A stretch of 64,000 nt of DNA from Balneola sp. (GTDB taxonomy: Bacteria; Bacteroidota; Rhodothermia; Balneolales; Balneolaceae): assembly GCA_002694685.1 (NCBI GenBank), contig NZMW01000013.1, positions 1 through 64,000 of the forward strand, read 5' to 3'. Both the position numbers and the translations under genes were made by a program. Below, one piece after another: positions 11,163-61,965 of the stretch. Each line of letters begins with the position of its first letter. The first letter of the stretch is position 1. Under the pieces are notes generated by a model. The model ran no database searches, was not told the DNA's origin, and worked only from the letters and a program-made list of their open reading frames with translations.

Positions 11163-11999
11163 ATGAGAAAACGTAAAGAAACATCGTTGTACGTAGTATT
11201 GACAATGTTACTGCTGGTAATACTATCAGCCTGTGATACCAGCATCCAGCCCATAGTTGATAAAGGCAAGGCTTACTCTATTTACGGGCCTTTGGATATT
11301 CAGAAAACACCAAACTACATAAGAGTACACGATACCAATGACCTGTTAAACCCTGATCTGACAAAGGATTTAGGGGTTCAGGTTACTATGACAAATTTAA
11401 ACACCGGCGCTTCCCAATTGTTGAAAGATGAAGTCAAAGTTTTTGACAGCTTATATACCCACAATTTTGAGATTCCGGATTCACTTGAATACGACACCCG
11501 CTATAAATTTTCGTTAGAAGATGAGGATGGATATCGGGATAGTGTAATTTCTGTTACAACAAAAGAAACGGAACTGACTGTTATTCAGGATTCTGTGTCA
11601 TGTGGGGAGCTTTTTATGCTCAGGTTTACAAATGTCGATCTTAATGCAGGAGAACGTATCGAAACCGAGGTTGGGATTAAAGTTGGAGTTGCTTGGATGT
11701 ACACAAAACGTCCGGCTAATTTCCGACAATACAACAGCGCAACGAATACCTTAACAATGGGCTGGAGTCCAAACTATGTGTCTGAACTCATCTTTGGTCC
11801 TTTTGATTGGGTAACGTGCAGTACGTTTTCGAGTGATAAAATAAAGTTTAGCTTTACTCATGTTGGCTACATGGAAGAGGTCCAACCTAATGCCCCAAAT
11901 GAACTAGAATTCGATCAGCTTTATACGCCTAACCAGGTAGTACTTAGCAAATATAAGGGAAGCACAGAAGTCACCATAGATTCAACTGTTTTTAATTAG
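11163..11999 (+). CDS. Lipoprotein of unknown family, receptor-linked paralogue 1
   Basis: A 278-residue lipoprotein: a signal segment ends in ILSAC with Cys near residue 24. I do not recognise the family with certainty; position after a TonB receptor recalls DUF4249-type lipoproteins, but the typical text of that family is not evident. The strongest feature is its close similarity to the next gene, including KGKAYSIYGPL, TPNYIRVHDTNDLLN and TNLNTGASQLL. The mature part appears to be two beta-sandwich units, the first about residues 30-140. It begins 15 bases after the receptor gene, so the two are almost surely in one operon, and it is probably a surface partner of that receptor. Confidence 0.75.
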   Translation: MRKRKETSLYVVLTMLLLVILSACDTSIQPIVDKGKAYSIYGPLDIQKTPNYIRVHDTNDLLNPDLTKDLGVQVTMTNLNTGASQLLKDEVKVFDSLYTHNFEIPDSLEYDTRYKFSLEDEDGYRDSVISVTTKETELTVIQDSVSCGELFMLRFTNVDLNAGERIETEVGIKVGVAWMYTKRPANFRQYNSATNTLTMGWSPNYVSELIFGPFDWVTCSTFSSDKIKFSFTHVGYMEEVQPNAPNELEFDQLYTPNQVVLSKYKGSTEVTIDSTVFN

Positions 12000-12131: not shown

Positions 12132-12995
12132 ATGAAGGCTGCTGTTTACGGGATGATATTGTGGGTGGCTCTGCTGGGTATTTCAGGCTGTGACAGCCCT
12201 ATTGAACCTATAGCTGATAAAGGGAAAGCTTACTCCATTTATGGCCCTTTAAATATGTTGGATACTCCAAATTACATTCGTGTACACGACACGAATGATT
12301 TGTTAAATACCATCGCCACCAAAGATTTAGGAGCTGACATTACCCTCACTAATTTAAATACGGGAGCCTCACAACTACTTGAGGACGAGTTCAGGGTTTT
12401 TGATAGCCTCTACACCCATAACTTCAGAATCCAAGACTCCATAAACTATGATACACGCTATAAAATTTCGTTAGAAGATGAGGATGGTTTCAGGGATAGC
12501 TTGATCACGGTGACCCCAAAAAAGAGCAGCGTTTCACTCTCAAAAGACCTTGTGCATTGTGACGAAGTCTTCCAAGTCAGGTTCACCAACATTGATCTTG
12601 AGGCTGGAGAAGAATTGGAAATTGAAGTAGGCATGCAACTGGGAACTCAGTGGTTTTGGACTCAAAGAAACAGCAATATTGAATACGATCCTGAAACAGA
12701 GGTATTGGAAGCGAGGTGGACACCAATTGGAGTTTCAGCTACCCTTTTCGGTGAATTACAGGGTGGGATTTTAGCGTACCCTCAATGTGTGGAATTTGAT
12801 AATCCTAAAATTAGAGTTCGATATACCCATCTTGGGTTCATAGAAGATATTGGGGATTCAATAGCTCAAGACATTCAGGATCAGGAAGGGCAAACGTATT
12901 TCCGGAAGATTGTTTTAAGCTACTACAGTGGAGAAAAAGAGTTGTTCTTCAAAGACACCGCTAAATCACCTGATCCTCCCATTTCCAATCAATAA
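12132..12995 (+). CDS. Lipoprotein of unknown family, receptor-linked paralogue 2
   Basis: A 287-residue lipoprotein (lipobox ISGC near residue 20) and a clear tandem duplicate of the preceding gene. The shared blocks include DKGKAYSIYGPL, TPNYIRVHDTNDLLN, LTNLNTGASQLL and FDSLYTHNF; similarity is strongest over the N-terminal half and weaker after about residue 140, with a longer C-terminal tail here. That pattern suggests a conserved contact surface and a diverging ligand-facing half. A 132-base gap separates the copies, so this one may have its own promoter. The function is unknown; a partner of the upstream TonB receptor is inferred. Confidence 0.75.
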   Translation: MKAAVYGMILWVALLGISGCDSPIEPIADKGKAYSIYGPLNMLDTPNYIRVHDTNDLLNTIATKDLGADITLTNLNTGASQLLEDEFRVFDSLYTHNFRIQDSINYDTRYKISLEDEDGFRDSLITVTPKKSSVSLSKDLVHCDEVFQVRFTNIDLEAGEELEIEVGMQLGTQWFWTQRNSNIEYDPETEVLEARWTPIGVSATLFGELQGGILAYPQCVEFDNPKIRVRYTHLGFIEDIGDSIAQDIQDQEGQTYFRKIVLSYYSGEKELFFKDTAKSPDPPISNQ

Positions 12996-48974: not shown

Positions 48975-50018
48975 TTGAGCTCCGAAACAACAAATACCAA
49001 ATACTCCCAGTCCTTTTTTTCAAGGAAATATCTGATTATTTCCATCTTGTTAAGCGTTGCTACTATGGCGGGCGTTATTTACTGGACCTATACCCCTGGT
49101 GTTTTGGAATATCTTTCGCCAAGCCGCTTGCCGGGTTTAGTGATTGCCCTGGTCGTTTCTTTACTAAGGGTTTGGTTTTCGGCAGCTAAAATCCGGTTTC
49201 TTTCAGAAAAACAATTGAGTTGGTACGCATCTATGCGCGTAGTTTTAGCTTGGGATTTTACCTCAGCTGTTACCCCATCCACGATAGGTGGTGCGCCCAT
49301 GGCGACATACGCGATGACCAAAGAAGGCCTTAAGCTAGGCGATTCAGGTGCCATTGTTTTATACGGTGTTTTACTAGACCAAATCTGGTTTGCGATCGCG
49401 ATTCCTATTCTTTTGGTAGCAGGAATCTTTTATGAAGTTGTTCCGCCAGAAATCGGTCTTGCCGGTGATGTTTCGATGGGGATACTTTATGTATGTTTGT
49501 TGAGCTATGCCGGATTATTGGCATACGGAGTTTTGGTTAACCCAACCGCAATTAAAAAAGTGGTTAAGTTTGTTTTCAAGCTTCCAATTTTACGCCGAAT
49601 GGGTGATAAGGTAGAGGAAGAGGCTGAGAACCTTGAAGAATATGCTCAGCAGCTGGGACAGAAACCACTTAGCTTTTTGTTGAAGGCTTTCTTTTTATCA
49701 ACCATGTCGTGGTTAGCTAGAATTGCCTTACCGACGATTGTAGTTTTGAGTTTACTTCCGGCACCCGAAGTTTTATCGGTATTAAGAAGTCTTGCTATGA
49801 ACCTTGCCTTCCTTGTTGTACCAACCCCGGGTGGAAGTGGAGGTGTTGAAGGTTTGTTTGTGCTCTTCCAGGGACCACTCATCTCAAGAGAAGGATTTAT
49901 TGGGTTGGCAGTATTCGTGTGGAGGATCATCAGCTACTATATAAGTATAGGTTTGGGGATGATGGCTACGACATGGTACGTGAATCAGAAAGTTGTTGAA
50001 ATAAAGACTCAGGATTGA
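48975..50018 (+). CDS. Multi-spanning membrane protein, lysylphosphatidylglycerol-synthase TM-region (UPF0104) family
   Basis: A 347-residue inner-membrane protein of the PF03706 family, related to the membrane half of MprF and to AglD-like flippases, with seven to eight hydrophobic spans. Family segments are SLLRVWFSAAKIRFL, the hydrophilic DFTSAVTPSTIGGAPMATY loop and the late LVVPTPGGSGGVEGLF. No synthase domain is present, so it is not an MprF; moving a lipid-linked molecule is a possibility. The start is a TTG at 48975; no in-frame ATG gives the full first helix and no clear ribosome site is seen, so the 5' end is uncertain. It lies three bases ahead of radA and is probably cotranscribed. 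Confidence 0.82.
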   Translation: MSSETTNTKYSQSFFSRKYLIISILLSVATMAGVIYWTYTPGVLEYLSPSRLPGLVIALVVSLLRVWFSAAKIRFLSEKQLSWYASMRVVLAWDFTSAVTPSTIGGAPMATYAMTKEGLKLGDSGAIVLYGVLLDQIWFAIAIPILLVAGIFYEVVPPEIGLAGDVSMGILYVCLLSYAGLLAYGVLVNPTAIKKVVKFVFKLPILRRMGDKVEEEAENLEEYAQQLGQKPLSFLLKAFFLSTMSWLARIALPTIVVLSLLPAPEVLSVLRSLAMNLAFLVVPTPGGSGGVEGLFVLFQGPLISREGFIGLAVFVWRIISYYISIGLGMMATTWYVNQKVVEIKTQD

Positions 50019-54398: not shown

Positions 54399-55940
54399 CT
54401 ATTCATCGCCACTATCACGGGAGATATCTAACACGTTCAGCGTTACATCAATGGAAGATGCCGCGCCGAGTCGGTCAGTAGCGATCACTTTAAACGTTGT
54501 TTCTCCAACTTGTCGTTCAGTCGGTGTCCATTTGAATTCACCTGTTTTCTCGTTAATTGAAGCCCCATCTGGCATGTCTACTCCAATATATCGAATGATG
54601 GGGTTTTGCGGATTTTCAGGGTCACTGGCATTGAACTGGAGCACATATTCCTCGTTCATAGCTATAGAAGTTGTGCGGATTGGGCTGAAGCGGGGAGGAG
54701 CATTAAAAGAACGCACATCCACAACAAATCGAGTACTGTCAGACTGCCCTTCAGAATTTGTTGCCACAATATTAAACCAGTAGTTCCCCATTTGATTTAC
54801 CGTTGGTTGCCAGAAAAAACCTTGTTTCCGGATTTTGGCATTATTGGCATTTGATCGATAGGAGAACTCAACTTGCCCCGCAGGATAGTTGCCTTCAAGT
54901 TCAAGCGGTAAAATAAGAGGGTTAGGGTAGGTTACAATTTTATTGGGAATGGCTTTTAGCAGGAAACTGCCGGATGCTGATGTTGGAGCAGATGACACTT
55001 CAGACCTGAGTTCAACTTTAGAAATATTGTCATTTTCTGAGATCCAGAGCTGACCGGTGTTATTGGCAATAAAGTTGCCGGCATTACCATCATTTTTCCA
55101 AAGTTCAAGAAGTCCTGTTTGATCTGTTGCCCAAACTTTACCGGACTCAGTTCGAACAAAAATACGATTATTCCAACTTGATACATGAGCGACAGGCTCG
55201 TTGGTTACCCCAATTCGATTGCCAATGCCAGCAGAACGGATTTCAAAAATCTCGCCATTTTGAGTACTGCCCCAAAGCTGTTCTTGATCGATAAATATGT
55301 TTTTGAGTGATCGGCGAAGGCTAATATTTTCTGAAACTTCAAGAGTAGAATCAACCTGATTAACTACTAAAAGGGAAGGGGCGTCAGTAAGTACAAAAAG
55401 CTGGTTGTTGATATTGGAGGAACGGGCATCGATAACAGAAGCTCCACCTAAGGCTTCTGAAAGCACCATTTTTGGATTTGTGTCAACCGACTCAGGAGAG
55501 GTTAACGAAACCATTCCAAGCCCTTCTTTTCCAAGTGCAATAAATAGACTGTTATTAAGTCGGGCAGCGGCTCGAGGCTGGGCAGGCAGGATAGTAGAAG
55601 AATAAACTCCTAACACAGAAGTAGGCTCGAGTACGGTGAGCCGTCGTGATTCACCAAATAAGTAAGCAAATCGGATGTCAGCCATAATTTTGTTGCCCCT
55701 GCGCTGCATTCCTGAAGAAGTGTATAACCACTGAAGCGTGTCAGGATAAGCGCGAAAGACAGCCATACCTTCCGTCTCAGATAAAACATATAAATGCGTT
55801 GGTGAACCTTCTAGAGCTGATATGTTTGGGATTTCCATAAGCTGGCTATAATCCTGAGCCAGACTTTGTTGTGCAAAAGCAGAAACTCCTGCGGTAAACA
55901 GAAAGAGAGCGGAGATAATTAAAGTCGAAATAAATTTCAT
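54399..55940 (-). CDS. Exported protein with propeller-like and cadherin-like domains
   Basis: A 513-residue exported protein (signal peptide about 1-23, ending SAFAQ). Residues about 40-300 hold short blade-like repeats (ISALEGSPTHLYVLSE, NNSLFIALGKEGLGM, NNQLFVLTDAPSLLVV, NRIFVRTESGKVWATDQTG), consistent with a beta propeller. From about 325 on there are two Ig/cadherin-like repeats: FFWQPTVNQMGNYWFNIVAT and FKWTPTERQVGETTFKVIA, the W-x-P-T...G pattern being typical of putative Ig (He_PIG or cadherin-type) domains. The protein ends in VLDISRDSGDE with no sorting domain. It lies in one run with the epimerase (4 bases upstream) and mutY. Function unknown. Confidence 0.72.
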   Translation of the reverse strand: MKFISTLIISALFLFTAGVSAFAQQSLAQDYSQLMEIPNISALEGSPTHLYVLSETEGMAVFRAYPDTLQWLYTSSGMQRRGNKIMADIRFAYLFGESRRLTVLEPTSVLGVYSSTILPAQPRAAARLNNSLFIALGKEGLGMVSLTSPESVDTNPKMVLSEALGGASVIDARSSNINNQLFVLTDAPSLLVVNQVDSTLEVSENISLRRSLKNIFIDQEQLWGSTQNGEIFEIRSAGIGNRIGVTNEPVAHVSSWNNRIFVRTESGKVWATDQTGLLELWKNDGNAGNFIANNTGQLWISENDNISKVELRSEVSSAPTSASGSFLLKAIPNKIVTYPNPLILPLELEGNYPAGQVEFSYRSNANNAKIRKQGFFWQPTVNQMGNYWFNIVATNSEGQSDSTRFVVDVRSFNAPPRFSPIRTTSIAMNEEYVLQFNASDPENPQNPIIRYIGVDMPDGASINEKTGEFKWTPTERQVGETTFKVIATDRLGAASSIDVTLNVLDISRDSGDE

Positions 55941-55944
55941 ATCA

Positions 55945-56919
55945 CTATAGCCAGTTGTGCATTTTATACCAATGAATGGTTCTTGAAATTCCTTCAGCTA
56001 AAGAAACTTCGGGAGTATAACCTAATTCTTTTTGAGCTTTTTCTGTGGAGCAAGTCCACTCTAAAATAAGCTCATTGGCTTTTTCCTTATTAACAACGGG
56101 ATACTTACCTAATAATGATGCAACGTTTTCTATCACAGCGGCGGCTTTTTTAACCAACTTAGGTTTAATCTTAATGGCCAGCGCTTTTTTGCCCATTACC
56201 TTTGAGGTAATACCACGAATCTCGTTCCAGGAATGGGTTCCTTCACCTGAAATAAAGTAGGTATGTACTCCTGAATCTGATTTCTGTGCTGCTTTCAGAA
56301 TTCCATTAACCAAATCACCTACATACACCATCGACAAGCGAGGATTGTTCCCGTCTCCCACAATAGGGCAGATACCTTTTGAGAAAGATTTGAAAAAAGA
56401 ATAGATCTGATCTTCCCGAGGTCCATAAACGGCCGGAGGGCGGACAATTTTTATACTATCGGTTTTTTGAGAGGCTTTATGGATTTTTACTTCCATTTCC
56501 TTTTTGGATTCTCCATACATACTCACCGGATTCATAGGTTCGGTTTCTGTTTTAGGTGAGCCATTGCTAGGTCCCGCTGCTGCCAGTGAAGATAGAATTA
56601 CCATATTCTTTACGCCTTTCTTTTGGGCAAGCCGCACGATGTTTTCTGTTGCATCAACATTTGCGTGCGTGAACTCCTTTTTCGTGGGAGCTTTGACGAT
56701 AGCCGCAATGTGAAAGACAACATCAGCACCTTCAAGCCCTTCGCTCAAAGCCTGAAGATCTTGAAGATCACCGCTAATTTTTTTGAAATCATATCCCGAG
56801 AGCCATTTCTCTTGAGAACGTACAAGACAGCGGACTTCTGAGTACTCTTTTGATTTAAGAAGAGCTTCCACTAAATGACTTCCAATAAAACCTGTTCCTC
56901 CGGTTACAAAGGCTTTCAT
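55945..56919 (-). CDS. NAD-dependent epimerase/dehydratase-like reductase
   Basis: A 324-residue extended SDR. Motifs: TGGTGFIG at residues about 7-14, GDLQDLQALSEGLEGADVVFHIAA with Asp at the adenine-binding loop, LSSLAAAGPS, and the catalytic YGESKKEMEV (YxxxK). The C-terminal half (YFISGEGTHSWNEI, YTPEVSLAEGI) matches the 3-beta-HSD-like subgroup to which proven or proposed bacterial 3-ketosphinganine reductases (Caulobacter CerR and Bacteroides BT_0972) belong, so reduction of a sphingoid keto group is plausible; a sugar epimerase is the alternative. ATG 56919 is used rather than an upstream start at 56997. It is divergent from two glycosyltransferase genes, 103 bases apart, next to a serine palmitoyltransferase-like gene. 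Confidence 0.85.
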   Translation of the reverse strand: MKAFVTGGTGFIGSHLVEALLKSKEYSEVRCLVRSQEKWLSGYDFKKISGDLQDLQALSEGLEGADVVFHIAAIVKAPTKKEFTHANVDATENIVRLAQKKGVKNMVILSSLAAAGPSNGSPKTETEPMNPVSMYGESKKEMEVKIHKASQKTDSIKIVRPPAVYGPREDQIYSFFKSFSKGICPIVGDGNNPRLSMVYVGDLVNGILKAAQKSDSGVHTYFISGEGTHSWNEIRGITSKVMGKKALAIKIKPKLVKKAAAVIENVASLLGKYPVVNKEKANELILEWTCSTEKAQKELGYTPEVSLAEGISRTIHWYKMHNWL

Positions 56920-57022
56920 TAATTTCCTTATATTTGAAGATTGTTTAGAATAAAAAAGAGAATTATTAAGCATCCCTGCAGAGTAAGTAAGATACAAATC
57001 TACCCTCTGCTTTTAAATTTTT

Positions 57023-58183
57023 ATGAAGGAATTAAGAGTCGCCCTTTTTACTGGTAACTACAACCACATCAGAGACGGTGTTTCATTAACGCTGAATCGG
57101 TTGGTGAAATTTTTAGAAAGTCAGGGAATTCCTGTATTGGTTTTTGCGCCAACAGTGGATAAGCCTGCTCTTGAGCATAATGGGCGCATGGTTTCGGTAC
57201 CATCTATCCGGATGCCGGTCTCGGGAAGGGGAGAGTATCGGGTTGCATCAGGATTTTCAGTAAAAGCTGAGAAAGAATTGAAAGATTTCAACCCGACCCT
57301 CATTCATATTGCTACTCCTGATGCGGCCGGCTACAAAGCACTGAAGTGGGCTAAGAAAAATCGTGTTCAGGTAGTTTCATCTTATCATACTCATTTCACC
57401 AGTTATTTTAAATATTATGGACTTACTCCCATCGAGTTTCTCGCCTGGCGCTATCTGAGCTGGTTTTATAATTCTACAACCCATGTATACGTGCCTTCTC
57501 AATCAATGATTGACGAATTGGTGACACATGGGTTTGAAAAGGGGATGAAGATTTGGGCTCGTGGAGTTAACACAAAATTATTTTCTCCCCAAAAACGAGA
57601 TATGGAGTGGAGAAGGAAAGCCGGGTTCAAGGATGACGATATCGTTGTGACTTTTGTGTCGCGTCTTGTGTGGGAAAAAGAATTAGATACCTACCGTCAT
57701 AGTGTGCAGCAAGTGGCTTCAAAGAACCCCAAGGTCAAAGCGCTGGTGGTAGGTGATGGTCCTGCTAAAAGTGAATTACAGGAACATATGCCCGAAGCGC
57801 ACTATACCGGTTTTTTAGAAGGCGAAGATTTAGCAAGAGCGTATGCAAGCAGCGATGTGTTCTTGTTTCCATCTCACACTGAAACTTTTGGGAATGTAAC
57901 TCTCGAAGCAATGAGCAGTGGGTTGCCTTGTCTGGTAGCTGATGCTACAGGGAGTAAGTCATTGGTGGATCATGATGAAAACGGTGGGCTTGCAGAACCT
58001 GAAAACAAAGCTGATTTTGCGAAAAAATTATCCATCATTGTTTCTGACAAAGAACTTCGAGACAAAATGAAAAAGGTGTCCCGGGAAAAGGCATTACTTT
58101 ATGATTGGGATGAAATTAATGGACAGTTGCTAGATAATTATAAGGAAGCGTTGGAACTTCCTATCCCAGAAGAAGACATTTAA
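57023..58183 (+). CDS. GT4-family glycosyltransferase 1
   Basis: A 386-residue GT-B fold glycosyltransferase of family 4. The N-terminal domain has the substrate-site NYNHIRDGVSLTLNRLVKFL; the C-terminal domain the nucleotide-sugar site FVSRLVWEKELDTY, VVGDGPAKSEL, and the E-x7-E motif ETFGNVTLE. The text resembles the MgtA/SqdX-like group that moves sugars (mannose, glucose, sulfoquinovose) onto lipid acceptors such as diacylglycerol. It is 14 bases ahead of a second GT4 gene and part of a run leading to the serine palmitoyltransferase-like gene. Acceptor and donor are not settled by sequence. Confidence 0.88.
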   Translation: MKELRVALFTGNYNHIRDGVSLTLNRLVKFLESQGIPVLVFAPTVDKPALEHNGRMVSVPSIRMPVSGRGEYRVASGFSVKAEKELKDFNPTLIHIATPDAAGYKALKWAKKNRVQVVSSYHTHFTSYFKYYGLTPIEFLAWRYLSWFYNSTTHVYVPSQSMIDELVTHGFEKGMKIWARGVNTKLFSPQKRDMEWRRKAGFKDDDIVVTFVSRLVWEKELDTYRHSVQQVASKNPKVKALVVGDGPAKSELQEHMPEAHYTGFLEGEDLARAYASSDVFLFPSHTETFGNVTLEAMSSGLPCLVADATGSKSLVDHDENGGLAEPENKADFAKKLSIIVSDKELRDKMKKVSREKALLYDWDEINGQLLDNYKEALELPIPEEDI

Positions 58184-58197
58184 AAATAACCGATTCC

Positions 58198-59370
58198 ATG
58201 AAGATCATTGATGTAGCGGAATTTTATACGGATCAGGGCGGCGGAGTAAAAACGTATATCAACCAGAAACTAAAAGCGGGTGAAAAGCACGGCCACGAAA
58301 TAGTGATAGTAGCACCCGGTGAAGACTGGGGAGAAGAAGAAAGATATGGCGGCAGGGTCATTTGGGTGAAAGGACCCCGCCTTCCGGTTGACTGGCGCTA
58401 CTACGTGTTATGGCGCGAAAAAGCCGTTCACGAAATTTTGGATCGGGAAAAACCTGATGTTGTAGAGGGTTCTTCTCCTTGGACCGGCGGCTGGTTTGCG
58501 GGGCGTTGGAAAGGTGATGCGGTTAAAACTTTTATTTTTCATCAAGATCCGGTGGCGGCATATCCGCATACTCTTTTAGGAAATATGCTGGGCTTCGATA
58601 AGGTGGACAAACTCTTTGGCTTTTACTGGAAGTATCTTCAACGCCTAAGTAATAATTTTGATGCTACTATTGTTAGTGGGGAATGGCTTGCGGAACGCAT
58701 AGATAGCTTTGGGGTTAACAATCCGGTTCCGGTGCCTTTCGGTATTGATAAAGATTTCTTTTCACCATCCCGGCGAGATTTACAGCTGAGAGCTAAGCTT
58801 TTAGCTCAATTTGATCTGCCAGAATCAGCAAACCTGATGATTGCAATCAGCCGACATCATCCCGAAAAAAGAATGGGAACACTGATTGATGGATTTCGAG
58901 CAGCTGCTGAGAAAAAGCCGATGGGGTTGATTGTTTTTGGGGATGGACCCATCCGGAAATATGTAGACTATAAAGCCAATAAATCGGATTATGTGAAGCT
59001 AATGGGGTTTACAGAAAACCGGGATGAGCTGGCCAATATTCTGGCGTCTTGTGATTATTTTGTTCACGGCTCTTCTGCAGAAACCTATGGAATTGTGGTT
59101 GCGGAGGCTGTTTGCAGCGGACTACCCGTTGTGGTGCCTGCTAGAGGAGGAGCCGCAGATATCGCCAATAAGGACATTGCCGAAACTTATCAGTCTGGAA
59201 ATGCGTCTGCCTTAAAAGGGGCATTGCTCAATATCATTCAAAAAGATAGAAATGAGATGGTAAAAGCTTGCCAAAAAACAGCTGAAGAAGGAATTGGAAC
59301 GATGGCAGACCATTTTGAGCTTCTATTTGAGAAGTACCAAGAGTTGGTTCAGCAGAAGAAGGATCAGTAA
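58198..59370 (+). CDS. GT4-family glycosyltransferase 2
   Basis: A 390-residue GT-B glycosyltransferase of family 4, distinct from its neighbour: N-terminal DQGGGVKTYINQKLKAG, then IAISRHHPEKRMGTLIDG, FGDGPIRKYVDYKA and the E-x7-E type motif ETYGIVVAEAVCSG. The Gly-rich acceptor loop and the ETYG segment recall alpha-glycosyltransferases that act on lipid or lipid-linked sugars. It starts 14 bases after GT 1, so both are cotranslated from one transcript, and it is 211 bases ahead of the serine palmitoyltransferase-like gene. A two-sugar headgroup on one lipid is a natural reading, as inference. Confidence 0.88.
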   Translation: MKIIDVAEFYTDQGGGVKTYINQKLKAGEKHGHEIVIVAPGEDWGEEERYGGRVIWVKGPRLPVDWRYYVLWREKAVHEILDREKPDVVEGSSPWTGGWFAGRWKGDAVKTFIFHQDPVAAYPHTLLGNMLGFDKVDKLFGFYWKYLQRLSNNFDATIVSGEWLAERIDSFGVNNPVPVPFGIDKDFFSPSRRDLQLRAKLLAQFDLPESANLMIAISRHHPEKRMGTLIDGFRAAAEKKPMGLIVFGDGPIRKYVDYKANKSDYVKLMGFTENRDELANILASCDYFVHGSSAETYGIVVAEAVCSGLPVVVPARGGAADIANKDIAETYQSGNASALKGALLNIIQKDRNEMVKACQKTAEEGIGTMADHFELLFEKYQELVQQKKDQ

Positions 59371-59581
59371 AGAGCCTAAGAATCAATTATCGAAATTTCG
59401 GTTTACTTAGTTAAATGAATATAGAATTCAGTAGCAGACCGATAATTTTCTTATCTTCAGCACGAAATTAAAACGACTTACAGCAGCCGGTACTTAATAG
59501 TGAGTTAGCAAAAATTTGATAGAAATTTAATACTGGCTATATTTCGCTGTTTATTTAGAATCTTTGTTAAGGAATTACCGA

Positions 59582-60817
59582 ATGGCCGATCAAAAACCCA
59601 GCGCCACCAATTCAGATATTTTTTCAAAAGCTTTCAATTTTAAGAAAGCCGATGAGGTTAAAGCAATGGGGCTGTACCCGTATTTTAAACCCCTTGAAGC
59701 AACCGATGGTACTATCGTCGAAATAGAGGGTAGAAAAGTGATTATGGCCGGATCCAATAATTACCTGGGTCTTACTAATGACCAACGCACTATAAAAGCC
59801 GCACAAGAAGCTCTCACTAAATATGGAACCGGATGCACCGGATCTCGATATTTAAACGGAACATTAGATAGTCATCTGGAACTTGAGGAGAAGCTTGCCG
59901 AATTCATGGGCAAAGAGTCCTGTGTTCTATTTAGTACCGGTTATCAAACCAATGAAGGGGCTATTCAGACCATTGCTGATCGAAACGACATTATTTTTTC
60001 TGATAAAGACAATCATGCTTGTATTGTAGTCGGTACGCTAGTTTCGAACGCAAAGACGATGCGTTATAAGCATAACGACATGGATCAGCTTAGAAAATTA
60101 TTAGAACGCGCAGATCCTGATGCTGGTAAGATTATTGTTACTGACGGAGTATTCTCCATGTCAGGAACCCTAGCTAATGTGCCGGATTTAGTTAAGCTGG
60201 CAAAAGAATTTGACGCGCGCCTTTATTTAGATGATGCACATGCCATTGGAGTAGTTGGAGATGGCGGACGAGGCTCAGCCTCTGTATTTGGTTTGACGGA
60301 TGAAGTTGATTTGATTAGTGGTACTTTTTCTAAATCATTTGCTTCACTTGGTGGCTTCCTGGTTGGTGACCGACCTGTTATAGAATATATAAGGCATAAA
60401 TCTCCTGCACATATTTTCAGTGCTTCTATGCCTCCTGCAAATGTCGCAACGGTACTTAAGGCTCTTGAAATACTTCAGGAAGAACCGTGGAGACTAGAAC
60501 GGCTTGAAGTGATTTCCAACTACATGCGCAAAGGTTTACGCGATCTCGGTTTCAATGTATGGAGTAGCCAAAGCCCAATTATTCCTGTTGTGATTGGTGA
60601 TATGATGAAATGCTTTGAGTTCTGGAAAGATCTTTTTGAGGCTGGGGTTTATACCAATGCCGTTATCCCTCCTGCGGTACCTCAAGGTCAGTCGCTTTTA
60701 CGAACAAGCTATATGGCCAGCCATACTGATGATCATTTAGACCAGATTCTGGAGGCATTCCGCAAAGTTGGATTAAAGCATGGAGTGATCGATCAGAACG
60801 GACATTCCGCCGAATAA
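59582..60817 (+). CDS. Serine palmitoyltransferase-like alpha-oxoamine synthase
   Basis: A 411-residue PLP enzyme of the alpha-oxoamine synthase family. Features: GSNNYLGLTND, YGTGCTGSRYLNGT, SGTFSKSFASLGGF with the PLP Lys251, and the PAHIFSASMPPANVAT segment. The text is closest to bacterial serine palmitoyltransferase, which joins serine and a fatty acyl thioester to give 3-ketosphinganine; 2-amino-3-ketobutyrate CoA ligase and BioF are related alternatives. The N-terminal extension and neighbours (glycosyltransferases, GNAT-fold protein, reductase-like gene) favour the sphingolipid role. ATG 59582 has AAGGAA upstream and is chosen over a TTG at 59564. Confidence 0.85.
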   Translation: MADQKPSATNSDIFSKAFNFKKADEVKAMGLYPYFKPLEATDGTIVEIEGRKVIMAGSNNYLGLTNDQRTIKAAQEALTKYGTGCTGSRYLNGTLDSHLELEEKLAEFMGKESCVLFSTGYQTNEGAIQTIADRNDIIFSDKDNHACIVVGTLVSNAKTMRYKHNDMDQLRKLLERADPDAGKIIVTDGVFSMSGTLANVPDLVKLAKEFDARLYLDDAHAIGVVGDGGRGSASVFGLTDEVDLISGTFSKSFASLGGFLVGDRPVIEYIRHKSPAHIFSASMPPANVATVLKALEILQEEPWRLERLEVISNYMRKGLRDLGFNVWSSQSPIIPVVIGDMMKCFEFWKDLFEAGVYTNAVIPPAVPQGQSLLRTSYMASHTDDHLDQILEAFRKVGLKHGVIDQNGHSAE

Positions 60818-60840
60818 TTTAATAATCTTACCAAGGCCGC

Positions 60841-61965
60841 ATGAAAAGTTCTGGGGTAACATTCGTTTCAACCAAAGAAGAGAAGAAACGATTTACGAAT
60901 TTCATATATCCGTTTTATGAGGGTCAGGAACACTGGGTTCCGCCACTTCGAATGGATCAGAAAAAGCTGATCGATACCGATAAAAACCCATTCTTCGAAA
61001 ATGCCGAAATGGCTCTTTTTATAGCTGAGAAAGATGGCAAAGACGTAGGCCGAATTGCAGCTATTATAGATCACCGGTTTAATAAATATCATGCTACAAA
61101 GACCGGTCACTTTGGTTTTTTTGAGTGTATTGATGATCAGCATACAGCCGACCTTTTATTTAGAGTGGCTTCCGACTGGCTTCGCGATAGAGGAATGAAC
61201 AAGGTCGTTGGTCCGGCCAGCCCGAGTATGATGGATACCATCGGTGTACTTATTGAAGGCTTTGACAAAGACCCGTATATCTTGATGCCATACAATTTTC
61301 CCTATTATGATGAGCTGATTAAAAATGCCGGCTTTTCTAAAGAGATGGATATGTATGCATATATCGTAGATACAGAAACAGTAGCGGTTGACCGTATGAG
61401 CCGGGCAATGGATATTGTTAAGAGAAGGCTTCCTGATATTGAAATCAGGCCTGTGAATCTGCGAAAAATGAATTCCGAAATTAAGATTATCAGGGAAATC
61501 TTTAATCAAGCCTGGAAAGAAAATTGGGGATTTATACCCCTTACAGAAGCTGAATTTCAGGCTGCCGGCAAAGATCTTAAAATGATTATTGATACCGATT
61601 ATGCCCATATTGCAGAGATCAAGGGCGAACCCGTGGCATTTTCTATTGGTCTCCCTAATATTAACGAGATCATTAAAGATATGAATGGAAAGCTCTTTCC
61701 ATTTGGAATTTTTAAACTACTCTGGAAGAAAAGAAAAGTTTCGGGACTGCGAACAGCGCTTATGGGAGTTTTACCGGAATGGCAGGGCAAAGGTATCGAT
61801 GCCTTACTTCACCAGCGCTCTATCCAAAATGGACTAGAAAGTGAAGGCAAGACTGTTTCTGAGCTAAGCTGGATTTTAGAATCCAACCCTGAAATGATTC
61901 GCGTAGCTGAGCGTATTGGCGGTGAGCTGGATAAATCTTATAGAATGTATTCTAAAGAGTTGTAA
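60841..61965 (+). CDS. Long GNAT-fold protein, possible ceramide-synthase-like acyltransferase
   Basis: A 374-residue protein of a GNAT-superfamily group that is longer than ordinary acetyltransferases. Segments seen are NPFFENAEMALFIAEKDGKDVGRIAAI (the GNAT fold strand-helix), FGFFECIDD, GPASPSMMDTIGVLIEGFD, MPYNFPYYDELIKNAGF and, in the second half, GVLPEWQGKGIDALLH with the acyl-CoA loop QGKG. The layout is that of two GNAT-like halves. Proteins of this group lie next to serine palmitoyltransferase genes in several Gram-negative groups, and the Caulobacter bacterial ceramide synthase is of GNAT type, so N-acylation of a sphingoid base is plausible but unproven here. It begins 24 bases after the palmitoyltransferase gene. 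Confidence 0.8.
   Translation: MKSSGVTFVSTKEEKKRFTNFIYPFYEGQEHWVPPLRMDQKKLIDTDKNPFFENAEMALFIAEKDGKDVGRIAAIIDHRFNKYHATKTGHFGFFECIDDQHTADLLFRVASDWLRDRGMNKVVGPASPSMMDTIGVLIEGFDKDPYILMPYNFPYYDELIKNAGFSKEMDMYAYIVDTETVAVDRMSRAMDIVKRRLPDIEIRPVNLRKMNSEIKIIREIFNQAWKENWGFIPLTEAEFQAAGKDLKMIIDTDYAHIAEIKGEPVAFSIGLPNINEIIKDMNGKLFPFGIFKLLWKKRKVSGLRTALMGVLPEWQGKGIDALLHQRSIQNGLESEGKTVSELSWILESNPEMIRVAERIGGELDKSYRMYSKEL

Follow-up and report, generated by a model that had tools for sequence, protein, structure and literature searches.

The DNA analyzed here, referred to below as the window, is a stretch of 64,000 nucleotides from Balneola sp. (GenBank assembly GCA_002694685.1, contig NZMW01000013.1, positions 1 to 64,000 of the forward strand). 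At positions 55945 to 61965, a preliminary description had placed genes for an extended short-chain dehydrogenase/reductase (SDR), two family 4 glycosyltransferases (here GT4a and GT4b), a serine palmitoyltransferase (Spt)-like protein, and a GNAT-fold protein, and we found all five open reading frames (ORFs) as claimed (Table 1). We took the SDR to start at the ATG at 56916, the longest SDR ORF beginning upstream at a TTG (56997), and Spt to start at the ATG at 59582, a choice that numbers its pyridoxal phosphate (PLP) lysine 251 and bears out the Lys251 named in that description. The intergenic gaps are 106 bp between the divergent SDR and GT4a genes, 14 bp between GT4a and GT4b, 211 bp between GT4b and Spt, and 23 bp between Spt and GNAT; with this spacing, GT4a-GT4b may be transcribed separately from Spt-GNAT.

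Table 1. Features of the five-gene locus, in window positions
Feature	Position	Strand	Pfam family or remark
Extended SDR, CerR-like, candidate 3-ketosphinganine or 3-ketoceramide reductase	55945..56916	-	PF01370
GT4a, family 4 glycosyltransferase, candidate first sugar transferase	57023..58183	+	PF00534/PF13439
GT4b, second family 4 glycosyltransferase	58198..59370	+	PF00534 (GT4 pair, PF00534/PF13439 twice)
Promoter-like string, Bacteroidota-like, TTTG-N19-TATATTT, 5' of Spt	59515..59544	+	candidate; such a string may occur by chance
Serine palmitoyltransferase (Spt), PLP Lys251, Ala281	59582..60817	+	PF00155 (aminotransferase-I/II)
GNAT N-acyltransferase, bacterial ceramide synthase (CerS) homologue	60841..61965	+	PF00583

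We compared this locus with the surroundings of Spt homologues in two sets of loci whose genomes overlap. The first set contains 30 short loci, which are the 30 best matches (23 from the order, including the genome of the window, and 7 from the class outside the order) and are therefore near relatives. The second contains longer loci, of up to 20 kb, from 20 of the 36 other genomes of the class with Spt among 148 genomes sampled from the phylum (12 from the order and 8 from outside it); class and order mean here, by inference, the GTDB taxa Rhodothermia and Balneolales. We found the GNAT gene next to Spt in all 30 short loci and in 19 of the 20 longer ones, including 7 of the 8 from outside the order. 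All 12 longer loci from the order (stretches of 15 to 20 kb) have the arrangement SDR-GT4a-second GT4-Spt-GNAT, and because this gene order recurs, the grouping of the five genes is not due to chance. Only one of these loci, from a genus-mate (L035), has GT4b as its second GT4; the other 11 have a different protein, GT4c, there. A gene for an Ig-like domain (He_PIG) protein, at 54399 to 55940 on the minus strand of the window, also adjoins the SDR gene in all 12.

Comparison with solved structures and with other members of the superfamily places the Spt-like protein with Spt. Its top match is the Sphingobacterium-type Spt (3a2b/8guh, 432 bits), to which it aligns without gaps around the GTFSKS motif that holds Lys251. 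The second-best Spt, a bacterial enzyme (2x8u, 296 bits), is nearly equaled by a dual-function BioF/2-amino-3-ketobutyrate ligase (KBL) structure (8s1y, 294 bits), and lower scores were obtained with a KBL (3tqx, 267 bits), SulA (7u7h, 243 bits), cysteate acyltransferase (CFAT; 28eh, 231 bits), and single-function BioF proteins (197 bits or less). In a 51-row tree, the window Spt groups with Spts of the class and phylum, the Sphingobacterium Spt, and the Caulobacter Spt, while CFAT falls outside this group and KBL, BioF, and HemA lie beyond a 99/95 fork. The tree is rooted at its midpoint, has long branches flagged, and supports the Spt group at 88/91, slightly below the tool's star; its Caulobacter HemA and BioF rows are named from PMC6445935 rather than by accession (this and all other papers given by PMC number are cited from excerpts). 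The protein also scores below the NCBIfam cut-offs for bioF (387 versus 426 bits) and for KBL (385 versus 460 and 321 versus 493 bits). Thus, a KBL or BioF identity is ruled out by both the model scores and the tree, and the naming of the gene in the preliminary description stands.

In Caulobacter crescentus, cerS lies downstream of spt and cerR just upstream of it (PMC11324152). We reached four Caulobacter genomes through a PopZ scan (4 of 80 loci followed), and each contains a GNAT gene 6 to 8 kb 3' of Spt and an SDR gene just 5' of Spt, which we assigned as CerS and CerR by gene order and neighbors rather than by accession; an acyl-CoA-synthetase-like ORF lies upstream of the SDR gene in both loci inspected. 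The window GNAT matches the CerS-position protein over its full length in all four genomes (36 to 39% identity, 373 to 386 columns, E values of 3e-74 to 1e-78), the window SDR matches the CerR-position protein in all four (27 to 30% identity, E values of 4e-24 to 2e-35), and the Spts are 36 to 40% identical. In addition, each of the four Caulobacter CerRs matches the window SDR best among the four SDRs of the window's own genome that were found with the window SDR itself as the query, a set that includes the query and in which any missed SDR could not compete. A 36-row tree joins Spt-linked SDRs and CerRs (90/92) apart from the other three SDRs of the window's genome and from a further Caulobacter SDR, a grouping that goes against the sugar-epimerase alternative as far as these SDRs can test it. 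Its Tyr-X3-Lys motif, read in the translation, is YGESK. A PDB search for relatives of the GNAT gave nothing informative (best E value, 0.017).

The preliminary description had offered two parallels for the reductase, CerR and the Bacteroides protein BT_0972, the latter as an enzyme annotated as an epimerase. The excerpts of PMC9278070 describe BT_0972 as a classical SDR of about 31 kDa with Tyr-X3-Lys and Gly-X3-Gly-X-Gly motifs, singled out for its resemblance to yeast Tsc10 and encoded apart from Spt, and the word epimerase does not occur in them. Since BT_0972 is a classical SDR, CerR alone stands as a parallel.

Taken with the gene order, these assignments make it probable that the cluster directs synthesis of a glycosylated (dihydro)ceramide. 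In the proposed pathway, Spt would join serine and a fatty acyl thioester to give 3-ketosphinganine, which would then undergo N-acylation by the GNAT protein and reduction by the CerR-like SDR, in an order that we leave open because the Caulobacter literature disputes which of the two comes first (PMC11324152). GT4a would then attach the first of two sugars and GT4b the other, yielding a diglycosyl ceramide, much as two glycosyltransferases, Sgt1 and Sgt2, act sequentially to make a two-sugar ceramide in C. crescentus (PMC6445935). Homology and context strongly back the predicted steps up to ceramide, and we regard the ceramide part of the locus as ordinary and well supported. Of the earlier proposal that one locus makes ceramide and adds two sugars to it, the ceramide set (Spt, CerR-like SDR, and CerS-like GNAT) was upheld. 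Ceramide as the acceptor of the GT4 pair is our inference from gene order, from the co-occurrence of GT4a and Spt across the class, and from the way in which the Spt-GNAT and GT4a modules, which are apart elsewhere in the class, are joined with the SDR in the order.

GT4a is present, at 47% identity or more, in all 37 genomes of the class in the 148-genome sample. Among the 111 genomes outside the class, a match at an E value of 1e-40 or better was found in 40, one of them at 47% identity and the others at 39% or less. Of 11 GT4a loci from the class outside the order, 7 have an adjacent GT4c, 7 have an MMPL/RND protein together with a DUF3047 protein, and 5 have both features; a GT4b-like protein (27% identity) was found in 1 of the 11. 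The five loci in which a GT4a-GT4c pair stands beside an MMPL exporter and DUF3047, away from Spt (L181:7387-14003, L182, L184, L187, and L194), are possibly a module for glycolipid synthesis and export, and an unassigned protein of about 340 amino acids occurs in 4 of the 5. The genome of the window has an MMPL orthologue (48% identity) on another contig. A different glycosyltransferase lies directly 5' of Spt in 4 of the 8 class loci from outside the order (L047, L048, L050, and L053), and it belongs to PF13528 in both cases scanned. In 6 of these 8 loci, a gene for a HAD-like hydrolase lies 3' of Spt-GNAT, the only one scanned being L047:11870-12565.

Several observations weigh against a glycosylated ceramide as the product. 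The window Spt scores 505 bits against a cut-off of 640 for the NCBIfam equivalog NF047600 (SerpalmtaseCFB), still its best NCBIfam model, and is therefore not filed under it. In the class outside the order, one locus (L051) has no GNAT gene by Spt, the fetched Spt loci contain an SDR homologue in 0 of 8 cases, and all 14 genomes have GT4a at a distance from Spt; among the loci examined, linkage of GT4 genes to Spt is limited to one order. Outside the class, queries with GT4a, GT4b, GT4c, and the PF13528-type protein found nothing in 20 Spt loci (other glycosyltransferase families were not sought), and two of the four Caulobacter genomes have no GT4a homologue in the roughly 18 kb 3' of CerS. 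The best NCBIfam name of both GT4s is a glycosyl-phosphatidylglycerol synthase, that is, a phosphatidylglycerol glycosyl transferase, and the next name for GT4a is a glycosyl-diacylglycerol one, all far below their cut-offs; these names make a glycerolipid acceptor possible. PDB searches were uninformative for both proteins, with no relative of GT4a at 1e-12 and, for GT4b, a match to glycogen synthase at about 1e-8.

The main rival on the question of the acceptor is therefore that Spt, SDR, and GNAT make ceramide while the GT4 pair, a mere neighbor, glycosylates diacylglycerol. We consider this the less likely reading, but a serious one: besides the NCBIfam names and the separation of GT4a from Spt outside the order, the 211-bp gap between GT4a-GT4b and Spt-GNAT would suit it. 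The points on the other side are that a GT4 pair is kept between SDR and Spt in all 12 loci of the order, that GT4a and Spt are both present in all 37 genomes of the class, and that a GT4a homologue (40% identity) lies 1 to 2 kb 3' of CerS in two of the four Caulobacter genomes.

We regard it as very improbable that the SDR is an HpnA-like sugar epimerase which, together with the GT4s, forms a locus for saccharides or hopanoids, with Spt-GNAT an unrelated neighbor. The best NCBIfam name of the SDR is indeed HpnA (TIGR03466, 149 bits), and the single MMPL protein scanned, which comes from another GT4a locus of the class, is similar to HpnN (280 bits), but both scores are far under the cut-offs (367.65 and 751.85, respectively). 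The two Caulobacter CerR-position SDRs that we scanned receive the same best name (84 and 67 bits), so the name is no argument for a sugar epimerase. Moreover, of the 20 Bacteroidota loci without matches to the glycosyltransferase queries, 15 have a homologous SDR near Spt. No squalene-hopene cyclase was detected in the genome of the window, and only 2 of 60 genomes of the class had one above the cut-off; its absence here and the HpnA name shared by the CerRs rule out a hopanoid locus.

A reading in which the Spt-like gene encodes a SulA/CFAT-type cysteate acyltransferase and the cluster leads to sulfonolipids, as reported for Salinibacter (PMC1586193), draws on membership in the same superfamily but is already contradicted, and we give it hardly any weight. 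SulA has Lys281 where Spt has Ala, a difference that distinguishes the two enzymes (PMC9304779), and the window protein has Ala at this site, as do the products of all 70 Spt loci at 30 residues past the PLP lysine (54 genomes, that of the window included). Its score is 432 bits to Spt versus 243 to SulA and 231 to CFAT. The genome of the window has three strong members of the superfamily and one weak match (22.5 bits), and of the strong ones the second, on contig 10 (L002:1459-2685, minus strand), is a distinct CFAT-like protein with Lys at the diagnostic offset, scoring 467 bits to CFAT 28eh versus 235 to Spt, while the third scores as BioF (435 bits against a cut-off of 426). The Ala, the tree, and this separate gene together rule out a SulA identity for the window Spt. 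Given this additional CFAT/SulA-like enzyme with its diagnostic Lys, the organism may, by this prediction, make sulfonolipids besides sphingolipids.

GNAT substrates are diverse, and the match of the window GNAT to PF00583 is only slightly above the Pfam cut-off; that it acylates a nonsphingoid substrate, for example to make an amino acid lipid, is nonetheless scarcely credible given its full-length likeness to the CerS-position GNAT of all four Caulobacter genomes and the adjacency to Spt described above.

The C. crescentus locus comprises aasR, cerR, acpR, spt, and cerS (CC_1165-1162 and CC_1154), and the window shares with it homologues of Spt, CerR, and CerS. Unlike Caulobacter, the window has no acpR or aasR that limited checks could detect. 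A GxDSL-type motif scan of all window frames gave 5 matches, none of which, by eye, was in a setting like that of an acyl carrier protein (ACP), and a Pfam scan of the products of 23 of the roughly 60 window ORFs turned up no member of the ACP or acyl-CoA synthetase families (a genome-wide search was not made); the preliminary description had likewise seen no such gene. Another difference is that the window cluster has two GT4 genes inside it, whereas the Caulobacter Sgt1 and Sgt2 genes (CCNA_00793 and CCNA_00792) are, judging by locus number, elsewhere in the genome (PMC6445935). A flippase-like LPG_synthase_TM protein is encoded in the window at 48975 to 50018 on the plus strand, 6 kb from the cluster, and the same Pfam family also occurs 3' of the Caulobacter GT4a homologue in L177.

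Outside the class, we hand-picked 20 Bacteroidota loci from the 72 genomes with an Spt match. Fifteen of these have an SDR homologue near Spt, which is adjacent and divergent in 11 loci and 3' of the GNAT gene in 4, and the GNAT gene adjoins Spt in 11 (one of them partial, at a contig end). The window locus shares the enzyme genes around Spt with Bacteroidota Spt-SDR-GNAT loci, including the Sphingobacterium-like L068, which have them in two gene orders. These neighborhoods differ from the statement in PMC11334938 that the three genes are not close together in Bacteroidota producers. The occurrence of extended SDRs near Spt in L066, L067, and 13 further loci raises the question of whether classical SDRs of the BT_0972 type are the usual 3-ketosphinganine reductases in Bacteroidota. 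The locus with the GT4 pair is a variant unmatched in the 20 loci, all of which come from genomes with LpxC.

LpxC (PF03331) was not found in the genome of the window, which is 99.7% complete, in contrast to Caulobacter, where the control search detected it. Within the 148-genome sample, LpxC is present in all 111 genomes outside the class and in none of the 37 within it (20 of the genomes without it are listed directly and the other 17 follow from class membership), and a wider search found it in none of 244 genomes of the class, 162 of them of high quality. The control genomes of Escherichia coli, Caulobacter, Synechococcus, and Bacteroides were above the LpxC cut-off. LpxB was above its cut-off in none of 60 genomes of the class, with one subthreshold match (other lpx genes were not sought); control matches came from E. 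coli, Caulobacter, Synechococcus, Bacteroides, Bacillus subtilis, and Lactococcus, four of the six above the cut-off. Spt, in turn, is present in 37 of 37 genomes of the class versus 72 of the 111 others. Because the class is one clade, the presence of Spt and the absence of LpxC count as effectively one event, not 37. LptD (PF04453) was detected in none of 60 genomes of the class, but nothing follows from this, since the model is also silent in the Bacteroides control. The window encodes two TonB-receptor plug domain proteins and a SusD-like protein, so the outer membrane itself is likely retained.

In Sphingomonas, a glycosphingolipid replaces lipopolysaccharide (LPS) (PMC1586193), and by analogy the glycosphingolipid predicted for the window cluster may stand in for LPS. 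The likeness lies in the combination of ceramide genes and glycosyltransferases in bacteria without lpxC and lpxB; unlike the Sphingomonas case, it concerns another phylum and a glycosphingolipid predicted from genes. We tentatively extend this, as a possibility short of even chances, to the whole class, which would lack lipid A and build its outer leaflet from glycosphingolipids made with the class-wide Spt, the usually adjacent GNAT, GT4a, and a second glycosyltransferase swapped between lineages, perhaps exported by MMPL/RND proteins. The O-antigen clusters reported in Salinibacter ruber (PMC6060240) tell against loss of LPS unless the polysaccharides are anchored otherwise. Among the papers listed in literature searches, none is by its title on LPS loss in the class, the excerpts of PMC7203096 and PMC3087551 are silent on it, and the searches returned nothing on sphingolipids of Balneolaceae or on lpxC together with lipopolysaccharide in Balneol- taxa; subscription papers were not covered by these searches.

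The absence of LpxC throughout the class, and of LpxB in the 60 genomes searched, sharpens the question of whether glycosphingolipids replace LPS here. If the class lacks LPS and uses glycosphingolipids, its outer leaflet would be an independent counterpart of the Sphingomonas substitution and a second, much broader natural experiment in LPS replacement, from which the glycosyltransferases and exporters required for such a membrane could be learned. Genetic modification has been reported for Rhodothermus marinus, a member of the class (PMC5822342). The glycolipid spots of relatives would then become predictions testable by mass spectrometry. One such relative is Fodinibius alkaliphilus, which we take to belong to Balneolales. 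On thin-layer chromatography, it yields two unidentified glycolipids (GL1 and GL2) and two aminolipids (PMC12260241).

Elsewhere in the window, the adjacent genes at 11163 to 11999 and 12132 to 12995 encode products without a Pfam match that are 49% identical over 277 residues, and this pair is, judging by the sequences, a tandem duplication.

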